A DNA stretch of 33,851 nucleotides from Prevotellaceae bacterium (GTDB lineage Bacteria > Bacteroidota > Bacteroidia > Bacteroidales > Bacteroidaceae), in assembly GCA_021204845.1 (NCBI GenBank), contig JAJPYT010000177.1, positions 1 through 33,851 on the forward strand. The letters are read 5' to 3'. Under the pieces are notes generated by a model, which did no database searches, had not been told where the DNA came from, and was given only the letters and a program-made list of their open reading frames with translations. The position numbers and the translations under genes are program-made. Positions 394 to 27,049 of the stretch are shown piece by piece (position 1 is the stretch's first letter; the number at the start of each line of letters is the position of its first letter).

Positions 394-1164
394 ATGAAGA
401 TGGGACAACAAGCTTTTGAATGGTTGCTCTGGGGAATGAGTGCTATGGCGGTGGTGGTGTTCATCTCTCTCTATTTCGTGCGTGCTGGTTATGGCATCTT
501 CCGCACGTCGAGATGGGGCGTTTCTGTGGGCAACCGCCTTGGTTGGGTGCTTATGGAGGCGCCGGTCTTTATAGTAATGCTGCTTATGTGGGCTTTCAGC
601 CCCCAGCGTTTCAGCGCGGCTCCGTTGGTGTTCTTCCTCTTGTTTGAGCTGCATTATTTCCAGCGCTCCTTTGTGTTCCCCTTCCTGATGAAGGGAAAGA
701 GCCGCATGCCCATATCCATTATGCTCATGGGCGTGGTGTTCAATGTGCTGAACGGTCTCATGCAGGGAGAATGGCTCTTCTACCTTGCTCCAGAGGGGCT
801 ATACACCGTCGCTTGGCTCTCTACCTTGCCCTTCATGGCCGGCACTGTGGTCTTCTTTGCAGGCATGGTAATAAATATGCATTCCGACTATGTTATCCGC
901 CATTTGCGTGAGGCGGGGGACACGCGCCACTATTTGCCGCAGAAGGGGATGTACCGTTACGTCACCTCGGGCAATTACTTTGGGGAACTTCTGGAATGGA
1001 CGGGGTTCGCCATTCTCACCCAGTCGCCCGCGGCATGGGTGTTCGTGCTGTGGACTTTTGCCAATCTGGCGCCCCGTGCCCATGCCATACGCAGTCATTA
1101 TCGTGAAGAGTTTGGTGTCCAGGCTGTGGGCAAGAGAAAGCGGCTTATTCCTTTTGTATATTAA
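394..1164 (+). CDS. Steroid 5-alpha-reductase family (SRD5A-like) membrane protein
   Basis: Hydrophobic ORF with family-like motifs LHYFQRSFVFPFLMKG, GMYRYVTSGNYFGELLEWTGFA, FANLAPRA and C-terminal RLIPFVY. Confidence 0.85.
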   Translation: MKMGQQAFEWLLWGMSAMAVVVFISLYFVRAGYGIFRTSRWGVSVGNRLGWVLMEAPVFIVMLLMWAFSPQRFSAAPLVFFLLFELHYFQRSFVFPFLMKGKSRMPISIMLMGVVFNVLNGLMQGEWLFYLAPEGLYTVAWLSTLPFMAGTVVFFAGMVINMHSDYVIRHLREAGDTRHYLPQKGMYRYVTSGNYFGELLEWTGFAILTQSPAAWVFVLWTFANLAPRAHAIRSHYREEFGVQAVGKRKRLIPFVY

Positions 1165-1178
1165 AATACACTTACATA

Positions 1179-2411
1179 ATGAGTTCTAAATTATTTACTT
1201 CAGCCTCCATAGGTCCACTTACCCTGCGCAACCGCACCATACGTTCGGCAGCGTTTGAGAGCATGTGCCCCGGCAACGCGCCTTCCCGCCAGTTGCTGGA
1301 TTATCATCGCTCTGTGGCGGCAGGCGGGGTGGGGATGACCACAATCGCATACGCCGCTGTCACACGCAGCGGACTCTCTTTCGACAGACAATTGTGGATG
1401 CGCCCGGAGATTCTGCCTGGGCTTAGGGAGATAACAGACGCCATACACCACGAGGGAGCGGCGGCAAGCATCCAGCTTGGGCATTGCGGAAACATGTCAC
1501 ACAAGAACATTTGCGGAGAGACACCTGTGGGGGCATGCACTGGCTTCAATCTCTATTCGCCCACCTTTGTGCGAGGCTTGCGCGAGGACGAGCTGCCTGT
1601 CTTGGCGAAGGCATACGGAGACTCAGTGCGCATGGCGCGTGAGGCTGGCTTCGAAGCGGTGGAGATTCATGCCGGGCATGGTTACCTCATAAGCCAGTTC
1701 CTCTCGCCCTATACCAATCACCGCAAAGACCGCTTTGGCGGCTCATTAGAGAATCGCATGCGTTTCATGGATCTCGTAATGGAGGAAGTGATGAGTGCGG
1801 CGGGCAGTGACATTGCCGTGCTGGTGAAGATGAACATGCGCGACGGTTTCAAGGGCGGAATGGAGCTGGAGGAGTCTTTGCAAGTGGGGAAGCGCTTGGT
1901 AAGCGATGGGGCGCAGGCTCTGGTGCTTAGCGGCGGTTTTGTCAGTAAGGCGCCCATGTATGTCATGCGGGGGGCTATGCCAATACTTAGCATGACTCAT
2001 TACATGGAGTCGTGGTGGCTGAAATATGGTGTCAGAATGGTAGGCAGTAAGATGATTCCCACCGAGCCCTTCCGCGAGGCTTATTTTTTGGAAGACGCGC
2101 TGAAGTTCAGGGAAATCATTACGGACGTTCCCTTGGTTTACGTAGGTGGCCTTGTGTCTCGGAAGAAGATAGACGAGGTGCTGGACTGTGGCTTTGAGTT
2201 CGTGCAGATGGCTCGTGCCTTGCTCAACGAGCCTGCTTTTGTGAACCGCATGAGAGCGGAGGAGAAGGCGCGTTGCAATTGTGGGCACAGCAACTATTGC
2301 ATAGCCCGCATGTACACAATTGACATGGCTTGCCACAAGCATTTGCAGGAAAAGCTGCCGCCCTGCCTTGAACGTGAAATAGACAAGTTGGAGAAGAAAT
2401 GGGTAGATTAG
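1179..2411 (+). CDS. NADH:flavin oxidoreductase / Old Yellow Enzyme family ene-reductase (candidate 5-beta-reductase-like)
   Basis: OYE TIM-barrel motifs (SIGPLTLRNRTIRSA, HAGHGYLISQFLSPYTNHRKDRFGGSLENRMRF); C-terminal Cys cluster CNCGHSNYC...C; lacks the C-terminal pyridine-nucleotide reductase domain of long OYE/BaiCD-type proteins. Confidence 0.85.
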   Translation: MSSKLFTSASIGPLTLRNRTIRSAAFESMCPGNAPSRQLLDYHRSVAAGGVGMTTIAYAAVTRSGLSFDRQLWMRPEILPGLREITDAIHHEGAAASIQLGHCGNMSHKNICGETPVGACTGFNLYSPTFVRGLREDELPVLAKAYGDSVRMAREAGFEAVEIHAGHGYLISQFLSPYTNHRKDRFGGSLENRMRFMDLVMEEVMSAAGSDIAVLVKMNMRDGFKGGMELEESLQVGKRLVSDGAQALVLSGGFVSKAPMYVMRGAMPILSMTHYMESWWLKYGVRMVGSKMIPTEPFREAYFLEDALKFREIITDVPLVYVGGLVSRKKIDEVLDCGFEFVQMARALLNEPAFVNRMRAEEKARCNCGHSNYCIARMYTIDMACHKHLQEKLPPCLEREIDKLEKKWVD

Positions 2412-3355
2412 CTTCGCTGAGGGTTTGGCTTCGCCGAGGGTTGCACCGTTGCTGCGCTCGGCAAACCGAACAAGTTCGTTCGCTCTCGCTTGCGGCACCG
2501 TTAGCAGTCATAACAGGTGCCGATGGGGGCATGGGCACCGAAATCACCCGTGCTGTGGCGCGGGCTGGCTATAGCGTTGTCATGGTGTGCCTCACCTCCT
2601 CAAAAGGAGAGGAGCGCAGGCGCCAGTTGATTGCCGATACAGGCAACAGTTCCATTGAGGTCATGCAGGCAGACCTCTCGTCCATGTCGTCTGTCAAGCG
2701 TTTGGCTGATGCTCTCCTGCGTCGTGGCGAGCCTCTTAGTTTGCTCATGAACAATGCTGGTACAATGAGCATCAGTGGGCTCCAGCAGACGGAAGACGGG
2801 CTGGAGCGCACTGTGGCTGTGAACTATGTGGCTCCTTTCCTGCTTACCAATAGTCTTATCCCCTTGATGGGTAAGGGAACACGTGTCGTTAGCATGGTGT
2901 CTTGCACGTATGCCATAGGCAAAATCACTCCCTCTTTCTTCACACGCGGGGGCGAAGGCACGTTTTGGCGCATCCCCGTCTACAGCAACACCAAGCTGGC
3001 TCTCTGGCTCTTCACCCGTGAGATGGCTGAGCGTCTGGCACCGCAGGGTATCACAGTAAATGCGGCGGACCCAGGCATAGTCTCCACCGACATTATACGC
3101 ATGCACATGTGGTTCGACCCTCTCACTGATATCTTCTTCCGCCCCTTCATACGCAAGCCCGCTAAAGGGGCAGCCACTGCTGTAAGTCTGCTCTTAGACA
3201 GCCAGTGGGAGGGCGTAAGCGGACAGATGTTCGCCTCAGAGAAGCAGAGAAAACTTGGCGATAAGTATTTGCGCCATCCACAGGCGAAACAGCTGTGGGA
3301 AGACACAAGCGCCTTCCTTAAACGCCTGAAATTGGACGGTGAGGCAGCAGAGTGA
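2399..3355 (+). CDS. Short-chain dehydrogenase/reductase (candidate hydroxysteroid dehydrogenase)
   Basis: TGADGGMG nucleotide-binding motif, NNAG, Ser in VVSMVS and YSNTK catalytic motif; N-terminal ~38 codons are repeat-derived, so the true start is uncertain. Confidence 0.8.
   Translation: MGRLASLRVWLRRGLHRCCARQTEQVRSLSLAAPLAVITGADGGMGTEITRAVARAGYSVVMVCLTSSKGEERRRQLIADTGNSSIEVMQADLSSMSSVKRLADALLRRGEPLSLLMNNAGTMSISGLQQTEDGLERTVAVNYVAPFLLTNSLIPLMGKGTRVVSMVSCTYAIGKITPSFFTRGGEGTFWRIPVYSNTKLALWLFTREMAERLAPQGITVNAADPGIVSTDIIRMHMWFDPLTDIFFRPFIRKPAKGAATAVSLLLDSQWEGVSGQMFASEKQRKLGDKYLRHPQAKQLWEDTSAFLKRLKLDGEAAE
2408..2451 (-). repeat. Dispersed repeat (copy 2, inverted, partly duplicated) inside the 5' end of the SDR ORF
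   Basis: TTAGCTTCGCTGAGGGTT and GGCTTCGCCGAGGGTTGCACCGTTG are reverse complements of the 74-100 core. Confidence 0.8.
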
Positions 3356-3434: not shown

Positions 3435-3444
3435 ATTCTCTTTG

Positions 3445-3517
3445 TAACCCGCCCGGGGTTCGAACCCGGGACCCCTTCATTAAAAGTGAAGTGCTCTACC
3501 AACTGAGCTAGCGAGTC
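3445..3517 (-). tRNA. tRNA-Lys (anticodon TTT)
   Basis: Reverse complement GACTCGCTAGCTCAGTTGGTAGAGCACTTCACTTTTAATGAAGGGGTCCCGGGTTCGAACCCCGGGCGGGTTA folds into a cloverleaf; anticodon loop CTTTTAA. Confidence 0.95.
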
Positions 3518-9945: not shown

Positions 9946-10764
9946 GTGAAACCATCAGAATGCATGCGACAGAGAAAACTCATATTGGTGACTAACGACG
10001 ACGGCTTTCAGTCGCAGGGTATAGCCCAGCTTGCGGAGCTTATGATGCCTTTGGGCGAGGTTATTATTGTAGCTCCTGAGGGTGGGCGCTCAGGTACTGC
10101 ATGTTCCGTGTCTTCCACCACCACTGTGAGGCTCACCGAACTTTCACCTCGTGGCGATGCAAGAGTGGTCTCATGCTCTGGCACTCCTGTGGATTGCGTG
10201 AAGCTTGCCCTGGAGCGGGTGTGCCCTCGCCAGCCTGACTTGGTGGTCAGCGGCATTAACCACGGCGACAATGCCAGCATAAGCGTGCATTACAGCGGAA
10301 CCATAGGCGCAGTAATAGAGGCTTGCATGAAAGGTATACCTGCCATAGGCTATAGCCTGCGCACCAGGGAGAAGCATTGCGATTTCTCTCCCTACGCCAA
10401 TGTCATAGTGCGTGTGGCGGAGCACGTGCTGGAGAACGGACTGCCTGTGGACGTTTGCCTGAACGTCAACTTCCCTGAGGTTGAGCGTCTGGCTGGAGTC
10501 AGGGTCGCCCGTCTTGCTCGTGGCAAATGGAGTGCCGAGTGGGCTTCTGCTCATCACCCGAGGGGAGAGAACCACTTCTGGCTGACAGGGTATTATACTA
10601 ATTTGGAGCCAGAAGCCACCGACACCGACTATTGGGCGTTGGACCAGGGCTACGCCGCCATAACTCCCCTGAAGCTTGACATGACCGCCCACGAGTGTCT
10701 CGCCGCTCTCACCGGGCTTAACCAAGATTTTCCGCGGGAACGGTGTAACCCTCAGCGAAGCTAA
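9946..10764 (+). CDS. surE: 5'/3'-nucleotidase SurE
   Basis: ILVTNDDGFQSQGI, GTPVDCVKLAL, VVSGINHGDNASISVHYSGTIGAVIEA motifs; C-terminal tail encoded by the dispersed repeat. Confidence 0.95.
   Translation: MKPSECMRQRKLILVTNDDGFQSQGIAQLAELMMPLGEVIIVAPEGGRSGTACSVSSTTTVRLTELSPRGDARVVSCSGTPVDCVKLALERVCPRQPDLVVSGINHGDNASISVHYSGTIGAVIEACMKGIPAIGYSLRTREKHCDFSPYANVIVRVAEHVLENGLPVDVCLNVNFPEVERLAGVRVARLARGKWSAEWASAHHPRGENHFWLTGYYTNLEPEATDTDYWALDQGYAAITPLKLDMTAHECLAALTGLNQDFPRERCNPQRS
10739..10764 (+). repeat. Dispersed repeat (copy 3) at the surE/lpxB junction
   Basis: AACGGTGTAACCCTCAGCGAAGCTAA, 25/26 identical to 75-100; supplies the surE stop codon and abuts the lpxB start (TAATG). Confidence 0.85.
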
Positions 10765-11918
10765 TGAGATACTACCTTATAGCCGGTGAGGCAAGTGGTG
10801 ACCTGCATGCCTCGCGCCTTATGGGCGAGCTGCGAAGAGGAGATGCCCGTGCCGAGTTCCGTTGCATAGGCGGCGACCTCATGCGGGAACAGGGAGGCAC
10901 GCTCCTGCGCCACTATAGCCAGTTGGCATATATGGGTGTGGTGCCTGTGCTTATGCACCTTCCCACTATCCTGCGAACCATGAAGGAGTGTCTCGGTGAC
11001 ATTCTCCACTGGCATCCCGACGCGCTCATTCTTGTGGACTATCCTGGCTTCAATCTCGAGATTGCCCAGCGTATAAAGAAGCACTGCGACATTCCTGTCT
11101 TTTATTACATTGCCCCCAAGCTTTGGGCGTGGAAGGAGTATCGCATAAAGTACATACGCCGTTATGTGGACAGCGTGTTCAGCATTTTGCCTTTCGAGGT
11201 CCCCTTTTTCGAGGGAAAGCACCACTGCCCCGTCAACTATGTGGGCAACCCAACAGTTGACGAGGTGGCGGCATACCTTGCCGCCAACCCTGCCGACCCT
11301 GAGGCTTTCCGCCTTGAAAGCGGACTTGACCAGCGTCCTGTCATAGCTCTTCTGGCAGGTAGCCGTAGGCAGGAGATAGCCGACAACCTGCCCCGCATGC
11401 TCCGTGCCGCCCAGCCTCTCACTGGTGACTATCAGTTGGTGGTGGCTGGCGCTCCTGGCATAGAGCCCGACTTTTACAGGCGTTATGCCAAGGGTTCTCC
11501 AGCCCATGTGCTCTATGGACAGACCTATCGCATCTTGCAACACAGCCAGGCTGCTCTGGTCACCAGCGGCACAGCCACATTGGAGACTGCCCTCTTTGGA
11601 GTTCCCCAAGTAGTTTGCTATTACATGAAGGCTGGCTGGCTGGCCAATCTCGGACGGCGTGTCATCATCAAGGCACCATACATTTCCCTCGTCAATCTCA
11701 TTGCTGACCGTGAGGTGGTGCCGGAGCTTGTTGCGGCACGCATGACGGTCACCCGTGTCCGTCAGCATCTGCTTTCCATTTTGCCAGACGGCTCCTCGCG
11801 TGGGCTAATGTTGGAGGGCTATGCTCTCATGTCTGCCCGCCTTGGCGCTCCAGGCGCACCAGCCCGTGCCGCCAGTGCCATGCTGCGTCTCATCGCGCGG
11901 CAGAGGAAGGAATCCTAA
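10764..11918 (+). CDS. lpxB: Lipid-A-disaccharide synthase
   Basis: MRYYLIAGEASGDLHASRLM, VDYPGFNL, YYIAPKLWAWKEYR, LLAGSRRQEI, TSGTATLETALFGVPQVVCY motifs. Confidence 0.95.
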   Translation: MRYYLIAGEASGDLHASRLMGELRRGDARAEFRCIGGDLMREQGGTLLRHYSQLAYMGVVPVLMHLPTILRTMKECLGDILHWHPDALILVDYPGFNLEIAQRIKKHCDIPVFYYIAPKLWAWKEYRIKYIRRYVDSVFSILPFEVPFFEGKHHCPVNYVGNPTVDEVAAYLAANPADPEAFRLESGLDQRPVIALLAGSRRQEIADNLPRMLRAAQPLTGDYQLVVAGAPGIEPDFYRRYAKGSPAHVLYGQTYRILQHSQAALVTSGTATLETALFGVPQVVCYYMKAGWLANLGRRVIIKAPYISLVNLIADREVVPELVAARMTVTRVRQHLLSILPDGSSRGLMLEGYALMSARLGAPGAPARAASAMLRLIARQRKES

Positions 11919-25210: not shown

Positions 25211-26035
25211 ATGAAGAAAGTGGCGGACTACATAGAGAGAATAGAGATAGACTCGCTGTGGAGCGGAAGACATCACGTGGACTGGCAGCTGAATCGCCAT
25301 GTGAACGTGCTGAGCGGAGTGAACGGCGTGGGCAAGAGCACCATACTGAACCGAGTGGTAAAGCATCTGATGGCGCTCTCAAATGAGGAGCGCACAGACG
25401 ACGGGGTGCACATAACCTACAACGACACCGAGGCGGAGACAGTGCGCTTCGATGTGATACGCTCGTTTGACCGCCCCGTGGTGAACAGCGAACTGCTGAA
25501 CAAAATCACTGACATACAGCTGAGTACCGAGCTGGACCTGCAACTCTACCAGCTCCAGAGGGAATACCTTGACTACCAGGTGAACCTGAGCAATCGCATG
25601 CTCGCTTTTTTCACCAGTCAGGCGGCTGACGCAGCCCAGAAGGCGGCGGAGACGGCGATGGAAAAGACTCACTTCTTCGACCTCGTTGACAGGTTGTTCC
25701 TCGACACCAACAAGAAGATCATGCGAGAGAGGAACGAGATACTCTTCATGCAGCACGGGGAGGTGATACCGCCTTACCGCCTGAGTAGCGGCGAGAAGCA
25801 AATACTCATAATACTGCTTACCGTGCTGGTGGAGAACAGAAGACCCTGCGTGTTGTTGATGGATGAGCCAGAGGTGAGCCTGCACGTGGAGTGGCAAGAG
25901 AAACTGATAGGGCTGATTCGTGACCTGAATCCCGAGGCCCAGATAGTGTTGACCACTCATAGCCCTGCTGTGATAATAGACGGGTGGGGGGACTGCGTTA
26001 CCGACGTGGCAGACATAGTGACCGACCCCGATTAA
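25211..26035 (+). CDS. AAA/ABC-type ATPase (SMC/OLD/RecF-like)
   Basis: Walker A GVNGVGKST, signature LSSGEKQ, Walker B CVLLMDEPE, H-loop TTHSP. Confidence 0.9.
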   Translation: MKKVADYIERIEIDSLWSGRHHVDWQLNRHVNVLSGVNGVGKSTILNRVVKHLMALSNEERTDDGVHITYNDTEAETVRFDVIRSFDRPVVNSELLNKITDIQLSTELDLQLYQLQREYLDYQVNLSNRMLAFFTSQAADAAQKAAETAMEKTHFFDLVDRLFLDTNKKIMRERNEILFMQHGEVIPPYRLSSGEKQILIILLTVLVENRRPCVLLMDEPEVSLHVEWQEKLIGLIRDLNPEAQIVLTTHSPAVIIDGWGDCVTDVADIVTDPD

Positions 26036-26050: not shown

Positions 26051-27049
26051 ATGAAACGCCTGAAGGACAACCTCAGCTCGCAATACCTTGAGGCGGCTAA
26101 CCGCCTTAAGCCCAATAATGCGAGACGGCGCGTGGTAGCATACGTGGAGAGTTACGACGATGTTTTCTTTTGGCGTACCGTGCTTGACGAGTTCGAGACG
26201 GATAAGCTATACTTCGAGGTGATGTTACCCTCGCGCACCACGTTGGGGAAGGGGAAGAAGAACGTGCTCACCAACCAATTGGGCAGCAATTTAGGCAACT
26301 ACATGATAGCTTGCGTGGACGCGGACTACGACTATCTGATGCAGGGGCGCACCGAGACTTCGCAGACCATACTGGAGAATCCTTACATATTTCACACCTA
26401 TGTCTATGCCATAGAGAATTACCAGTGCTACGACGCGGGGTTGCACGAGGCTTGTGTGATGGCGACCCTGAACGACCATGAACTGGTGAACCTGGTGGCG
26501 TTCATGAAAGAGTACAGCAAGATAATATGGCCGCTCTTTGTCTGGAATATCTGGTGCTACAGGTATGGGTGTCAGCATAGCTTCTCTCTTTTGGACTTCT
26601 GCAACGTGGTCACCTTTCGGGAAGTGTCCATCAGCCACCCCGAGCAGACCTTGGAACTTGTGCGCCGACAGGTGAACCGCTCAATAGCTACCATGCAGCG
26701 CAAGCATCCCGAAGGGAAAAAAACGTATGCGCCGCTCCGTCAGGAACTGCTGAGCCTTGGTCTCACGCCTGAGACAACCTACCTTTACATGCAGGGGCAC
26801 CGCCTGTTTGAGGGTGTGGTCTTGCCGTTGCTTGAACCCATTTGCACTTCGCTGCGCAAGGAGAGAGAGAGGGAGATACGCCAGTTGGCTTGCCACGAGA
26901 CACAGAAGCAGAACGAGCTCTCATGCTATCGCAACAGCCAGTTCCCCCTGGAGACCATGTTGAAGAAGAACACCAGTTTCAAGCGTTCCGAGCCCTACCA
27001 GCGCTTGCGGGCTGACCTGCGGAAGTTTATCGAGAAGATGTCGATGTAA
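26051..27049 (+). CDS. DUF4435-type (TOPRIM-like) protein, partner of the upstream ATPase
   Basis: VVAYVESYDDVFFWR and MIACVDADYDYL acidic motifs, PYIFHTYVYAIENYQCY typical of DUF4435; 15-nt gap to the ATPase. Confidence 0.75.
   Translation: MKRLKDNLSSQYLEAANRLKPNNARRRVVAYVESYDDVFFWRTVLDEFETDKLYFEVMLPSRTTLGKGKKNVLTNQLGSNLGNYMIACVDADYDYLMQGRTETSQTILENPYIFHTYVYAIENYQCYDAGLHEACVMATLNDHELVNLVAFMKEYSKIIWPLFVWNIWCYRYGCQHSFSLLDFCNVVTFREVSISHPEQTLELVRRQVNRSIATMQRKHPEGKKTYAPLRQELLSLGLTPETTYLYMQGHRLFEGVVLPLLEPICTSLRKEREREIRQLACHETQKQNELSCYRNSQFPLETMLKKNTSFKRSEPYQRLRADLRKFIEKMSM

Follow-up and report, generated by a model that had tools for sequence, protein, structure and literature searches.

Does a contig of a Prevotellaceae bacterium encode an enzyme set for reducing the A ring of steroids, and which steroids would such a set act on? 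We addressed this for three plus-strand genes near the start of contig JAJPYT010000177.1 (assembly GCA_021204845.1), using the whole 33,851-nucleotide stretch analysed, hereafter the window, and the host assembly, which is metagenome-assembled (2.27 Mb, estimated 84% complete, 4.1% contamination). Because protein families, folds, active-site residues and a conserved gene order all point the same way, the trio very probably constitutes a module for redox reactions on the A ring of 3-oxo steroids, comprising a 5β-reductase (5BR) of the Old Yellow Enzyme (OYE) family, an SRD5A-type 5α-reductase (5AR) and an SDR.

Three adjacent genes of a predicted steroid-reduction module

The open reading frames (Table 1) agree with a sequence-only reading of this DNA, which had placed a 14-nt gap between the SRD5A and OYE genes (1165–1178) and a 13-nt overlap between the OYE and SDR genes (2399–2411). 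The families it had named were likewise recovered by a Pfam search, with 133 bits for Steroid_dh (cut-off 22.6), 155.9 for Oxidored_FMN and 107.4 for adh_short. A profile search of the whole assembly gave no further matches to PF02544 or PF00724 elsewhere in it. The trio probably forms one transcription unit. A tRNA gene marks its downstream border, and tRNAs lie beside the trio in just one of 34 other loci (L008), which excludes tRNA-linked integration as a general rule.

Table 1 Positions in the window of the trio, its sequence features and its downstream border
Feature	Position	Strand	Basis or remark
SRD5A-type membrane steroid 5α-reductase (5AR)	394..1164	+	256 aa; PF02544, fold
Glu55 codon (human SRD5A2 Glu57, steroid C3-carbonyl side)	556..558	+	Alignment with SRD5A2 and PbSRD5A; invariant in 21 homologues
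Tyr88 codon (human SRD5A2 Tyr91, catalytic pair with Glu57)	655..657	+	Same alignment; invariant in 21 homologues
NYFGELLEW: Asn194, Glu198, Glu201, Trp202 (SRD5A2 Asn193, Glu197, Glu200, Trp201)	973..999	+	Alignment
OYE-family flavin ene-reductase, candidate 5β-reductase (5BR)	1179..2411	+	410 aa; PF00724
OYE H-A-G-H substrate-binding pair His164/His167	1668..1679	+	Both invariant in 31 homologues
OYE C-terminal Cys366-x-Cys368-x5-Cys374-x10-Cys385, probable Fe–S ligands	2274..2333	+	Cysteine conservation
SDR, candidate 3β-hydroxysteroid dehydrogenase	2399..3355	+	318 aa; PF00106
In-frame dispersed-repeat insertion in SDR start	2414..2506	+	93 nt = 31 residues, directly after first five codons
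tRNA-Lys (TTT), downstream border of trio	3444..3517	−	ARAGORN

The first protein is a steroid 5α-reductase homologue

The first gene product is a true homologue of steroid 5α-reductases, with a predicted activity of that kind. Among solved structures it matched PbSRD5A (7c83; E = 1.7e-51; 41% identity over 245 aligned residues) and human SRD5A2 (7bw1; E = 2.9e-36; 35% over 240), and its AlphaFold2 model (pLDDT 81.8) reached TM scores of 0.85 and 0.76 to these two proteins, respectively. It shares with both the fold, the Glu/Tyr pair and most NADPH-site residues. In the alignment, Glu57, Tyr91, Arg94, Asn160, Asp164, Arg171, Asn193, Glu197, Glu200 and Tyr235 of human SRD5A2 are conserved, and Glu55, Tyr88, Asn161, Asp165, Arg172, Asn194, Glu198 and Tyr236 of the bacterial protein are invariant in 21 Bacteroidales homologues with identities down to 41%. 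Glu57 and Tyr91 of SRD5A2 bind the steroid C3 carbonyl. The bacterial protein differs in the alignment by carrying Lys for Arg105, Met for Tyr107 and Ile232 for His231, the last of which counts against the module reading.

Instead of a steroid, the substrate of the protein might be an isoprenoid, a polyprenol or an enoyl-CoA, as for SRD5A3 or TECR, in which case the cluster would not be a steroid module. We consider this very improbable. The TECR-type chain 22of is a weak relative (E = 7.5e-07), and DUF1295 and PEMT profiles give weak matches (27 and 22 bits), but the SRD5A match is far better, a PDB fold search with the model returned nothing besides 7c83 and 7bw1 at E ≤ 0.001, the carbonyl-binding Glu/Tyr pair is invariant and the gene has kept its ene-reductase and SDR neighbours across loci. 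A TECR-, ICMT- or PEMT-type identity was rejected on profile score and fold. The isoprenoid- or methyltransferase-like grouping that the sequence-only reading had named as grounds for abandoning its proposal is not what profile scores, structure matches and the fold search indicate.

A short ene-reductase with a putative Fe–S site

The second protein consists of a barrel followed by a short cysteine-containing tail, without an FAD/NAD domain. Its AlphaFold2 model (pLDDT 90.5) superposes on Thermus OYE and YqjM, with TM scores (over the query) of 0.78–0.79 to 6qkg and 1ps9 versus 0.67–0.73 to single-domain OYEs. Besides the histidine pair, Tyr169 is invariant among homologues. Three cysteines of the tail, Cys368, Cys374 and Cys385, are invariant in 31 sequences, and the fourth lies upstream of them in 65 alignment rows and downstream in a CHxC-type arrangement in 10; a further 3 rows have a cysteine at both positions and 2 at neither. 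The shift of this fourth cysteine between homologues points to a putative metal site, most likely Fe–S, in C-x-C-x5-C-x10-C. A barrel followed by a cysteine segment is also the arrangement of the Fe–S enzymes 2,4-dienoyl-CoA reductase (1ps9) and 2-naphthoyl-CoA reductase (6qkg), which differ in having a second FAD/NAD(P) domain. The ligand spacing in 1ps9 is presumably CX2CX3CX11C, versus CX1CX5CX10C here. Membership of the BaiCD family was rejected: the NCBIfam BaiCD equivalog model scored 150 bits against a cut-off of 825.

A repeat insertion at the start of the SDR

The third protein satisfies the classical SDR criteria (TGxxxGxG, NNAG, Ser and YxxxK), with TGADGGMG from residue 39, NNAG from residue 118, Ser168, Tyr195 and Lys199. 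Four of these residues (Asn118, Ser168, Tyr195, Lys199) do not vary among the 58 homologues whose alignment covers them, bearing out the intact catalytic motifs claimed earlier. The most likely role is that of a candidate 3β-hydroxysteroid dehydrogenase (3β-HSDH), a specificity that is not readable from sequence.

The amino terminus of this SDR is not native. Relatives start with MSKLA-I/V-ITGADGG, whereas here 31 Arg- and Cys-rich residues separate MGRLA from VITGADGG, as compared with MSKLAIITGADGG in Phocaeicola vulgatus. The corresponding 93 nt are absent from the same place in L003 and in the closest relative, L070, and represent a dispersed repeat of 17-nt units (TTAGCTTCGCTGAGGGT, many with CACCGTT as their end) with 51 matches in the host genome; its 26-nt core was absent from twelve related genomes when three mismatches were allowed. 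Other copies in the window lie at 74–102 and 10733–10765, and the repeat is frequent near contig ends. A structured RNA at the OYE/SDR junction was rejected, as the insertion folds no better than shuffled sequences (z = 0.35). Gene damage in L070 was likewise dismissed: the gap in its SRD5A gene is a run of N, and its SDR lacks the insertion.

An insertion that is unique to the host copy and adds 31 such residues ahead of the Rossmann fold could be taken as a sign that the operon is decaying, with the third gene disabled. We regard decay as improbable, as the insertion keeps the reading frame, the catalytic residues and the remainder of the SDR are intact, and no stop or frameshift occurs in any of the three genes.

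The trio is a conserved unit in Bacteroidales

A single scan of 84,980 genomes yielded 72 loci, all from Bacteroidales or near kin. The SRD5A and OYE genes are adjacent in 62 of the 72, and the SDR gene also follows in 50 of those 62, often joined by a 4-nt overlap in related loci. Because flanking genes differ between genera, it is the trio that is conserved as a unit, in line with the earlier description of a characteristic, known trio. Among relatives with a species name, P. vulgatus and P. massiliensis come closest, and the P. vulgatus proteins are 78% (SRD5A), 85% (OYE) and 72% (SDR) identical to those of the window. That SRD5A homologues are uncommon in bacteria, as also stated earlier, needs a qualifier: in evenly drawn samples, 31 of 247 genomes from the order and 17 of 151 from the family contain a close homologue (E < 1e-70), so the gene is not rare within Bacteroidales. 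In the order-wide sample, an OYE gene lies within about 300 nt of 25 of the 31 close homologues.

Variants of the cluster were also seen. L018, L033, L035 and L058 carry an additional or different SDR; in the first three, from Coprobacter and Alistipes, a second SDR sits between OYE and SDR and is possibly a candidate for a second hydroxysteroid dehydrogenase specificity. In L064–L067, SRD5A occurs without OYE, and a different conserved gene encoding 335–344 aa precedes it. OYE is also missing from L037 and L039, where the SDR directly follows SRD5A. The missing OYE in some relatives and the additional or different SDR in others are further points against the module reading.

The trio and its neighbour have discordant phylogenies

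The next protein gene in the window encodes RelA/SpoT, and in its tree the window protein joins those of its genus mates (support 98 and 96), with 70–72% identity to most genus mates versus 66% or less to Phocaeicola. By contrast, in the SRD5A and OYE trees the window proteins join Phocaeicola sequences (support values of 97 and 96); constraining them to the genus mates was rejected (AU test, p = 0.0004 for SRD5A and 0.017 for OYE). Because the trio groups with Phocaeicola and RelA with its own genus, horizontal transfer of the trio is suggested as the simplest reading of these trees. In a metagenome-assembled genome, the trio could also have been joined to the RelA gene of another genome by misassembly; this is less likely than horizontal transfer because the GC3 of the trio (62–66%) falls within the range of the contig. 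If the operon was indeed inherited discordantly with its neighbourhood, its presence would therefore not be predictable from taxonomy alone.

The window also contains a PARIS-like anti-phage pair, AriA (25211–26035; E = 4.6e-61) and AriB/DUF4435 (26051–27049; E = 4.1e-62), about 22 kb from the trio. In L002–L007 (P. vulgatus, P. massiliensis and four others), only about 1 kb separates the trio from the same pair downstream of it, with identities of 59–61% and 53–56% to the window copies.

Proposed pathway and candidate substrates

Activity, stereochemistry and substrate of the window proteins are predictions from sequence, and the following route is proposed on that basis. OYE (5BR) would interconvert 3-oxo-5β and 3-oxo-Δ4 steroids. 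The membrane-bound SRD5A (5AR), using NADPH, would irreversibly reduce the Δ4 bond to give the flat 5α (allo) form, and the SDR would then reduce the 3-ketone, most likely to the 3β alcohol. The net outcome would be that 5β bile acids, 3-oxo-LCA for example, are turned into products of the isoallo type, that hormones such as testosterone and progesterone are reduced, or both. Sequence alone fixes no substrate, and on this point we agree with the sequence-only reading.

The SRD5A–OYE pair also occurs in 11 loci from records named rumen or omasum (RUG in record names is, we assume, 'rumen uncultured genome'). Ten of these 11 OYEs fall into one clade of 17 (support 100), which also includes genus mates of the window. 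The existence of such a rumen-dominated clade suggests substrates of the trio besides bile acids. Since bile joins the digestive tract only behind the foregut, bacteria of the foregut meet little of it, and feed sterols would be plausible substrates there.

The same module could have sterols from the diet or from plants (or the corresponding 3-keto compounds) as its main natural substrates, with bile-acid activity a by-product in intestinal species. We hold this to be possible but doubtful. The rumen clade and the site of bile entry speak for it, as does the lack of a BSH gene (PF02275) in the 84%-complete host genome, which also counts against the favoured module reading. However, the activities reported in the literature searched concern bile acids and hormones only, bile-acid genes are annotated in rumen MAGs (PMC11193847), and the window copy belongs to an intestinal Phocaeicola-type clade. 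A further reading, in our estimate unlikely, makes the trio an ancient and mobile module of Bacteroidales for the reduction of sterols. It would originally have served dietary sterols in herbivore foreguts and then passed to intestinal lineages, with bile acids as substrates there, and its OYE would be a short ene-reductase that receives electrons by way of an unusual Fe–S site (C-x-C-x5-C-x10-C) with a variable fourth ligand.

Comparison with known systems

With the A-ring module favoured here, one more lineage of Bacteroidaceae joins those with the known operon for modifying bile acids and hormones, and the rumen-dominated clade offers a place for testing the bile-acid explanation. What is added to the known module is modest: a cysteine site in the OYE, a repeat insertion in the SDR, a phylogeny discordant with that of the neighbouring gene, and a clade dominated by rumen loci. 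The enzyme set in Bacteroidetes and its products are already covered in reviews (PMC10672800, PMC12697870), and conversion of 3-oxoLCA to isoalloLCA by Bacteroides appears in PMC11271093. Citing Sato 2021 (Nature 599:458), PMC12789469 lists 5α-reductase for P. merdae, Odoribacter laneus (Odoribacteraceae), B. dorei and Alistipes. PMC9645264 covers the indirect allo pathway and sets the membrane-associated 5α-reductases of Bacteroidetes apart from clostridial BaiP/BaiJ.

The clostridial Δ4-3-ketosteroid 5β-reductase (ci2350 family, PMC12238238) and BaiCD belong to the OYE superfamily and share the proposed reaction of the trio OYE, but the latter is short (410 aa) and lacks their usual second (FAD/NAD) domain. 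With the Bacteroidetes 5AR–5BR–3β-HSDH set, the trio has in common the same three families, arrangement in one operon and the same bacterial order; through taxa and gene order, we infer a likeness to the assayed enzymes of P. merdae and Odoribacteraceae. Unlike that set, the window SDR carries a 31-residue N-terminal insertion. Thus, the trio is a new copy of an already known Bacteroidetes module, ordinary apart from its repeat insertion and discordant history.
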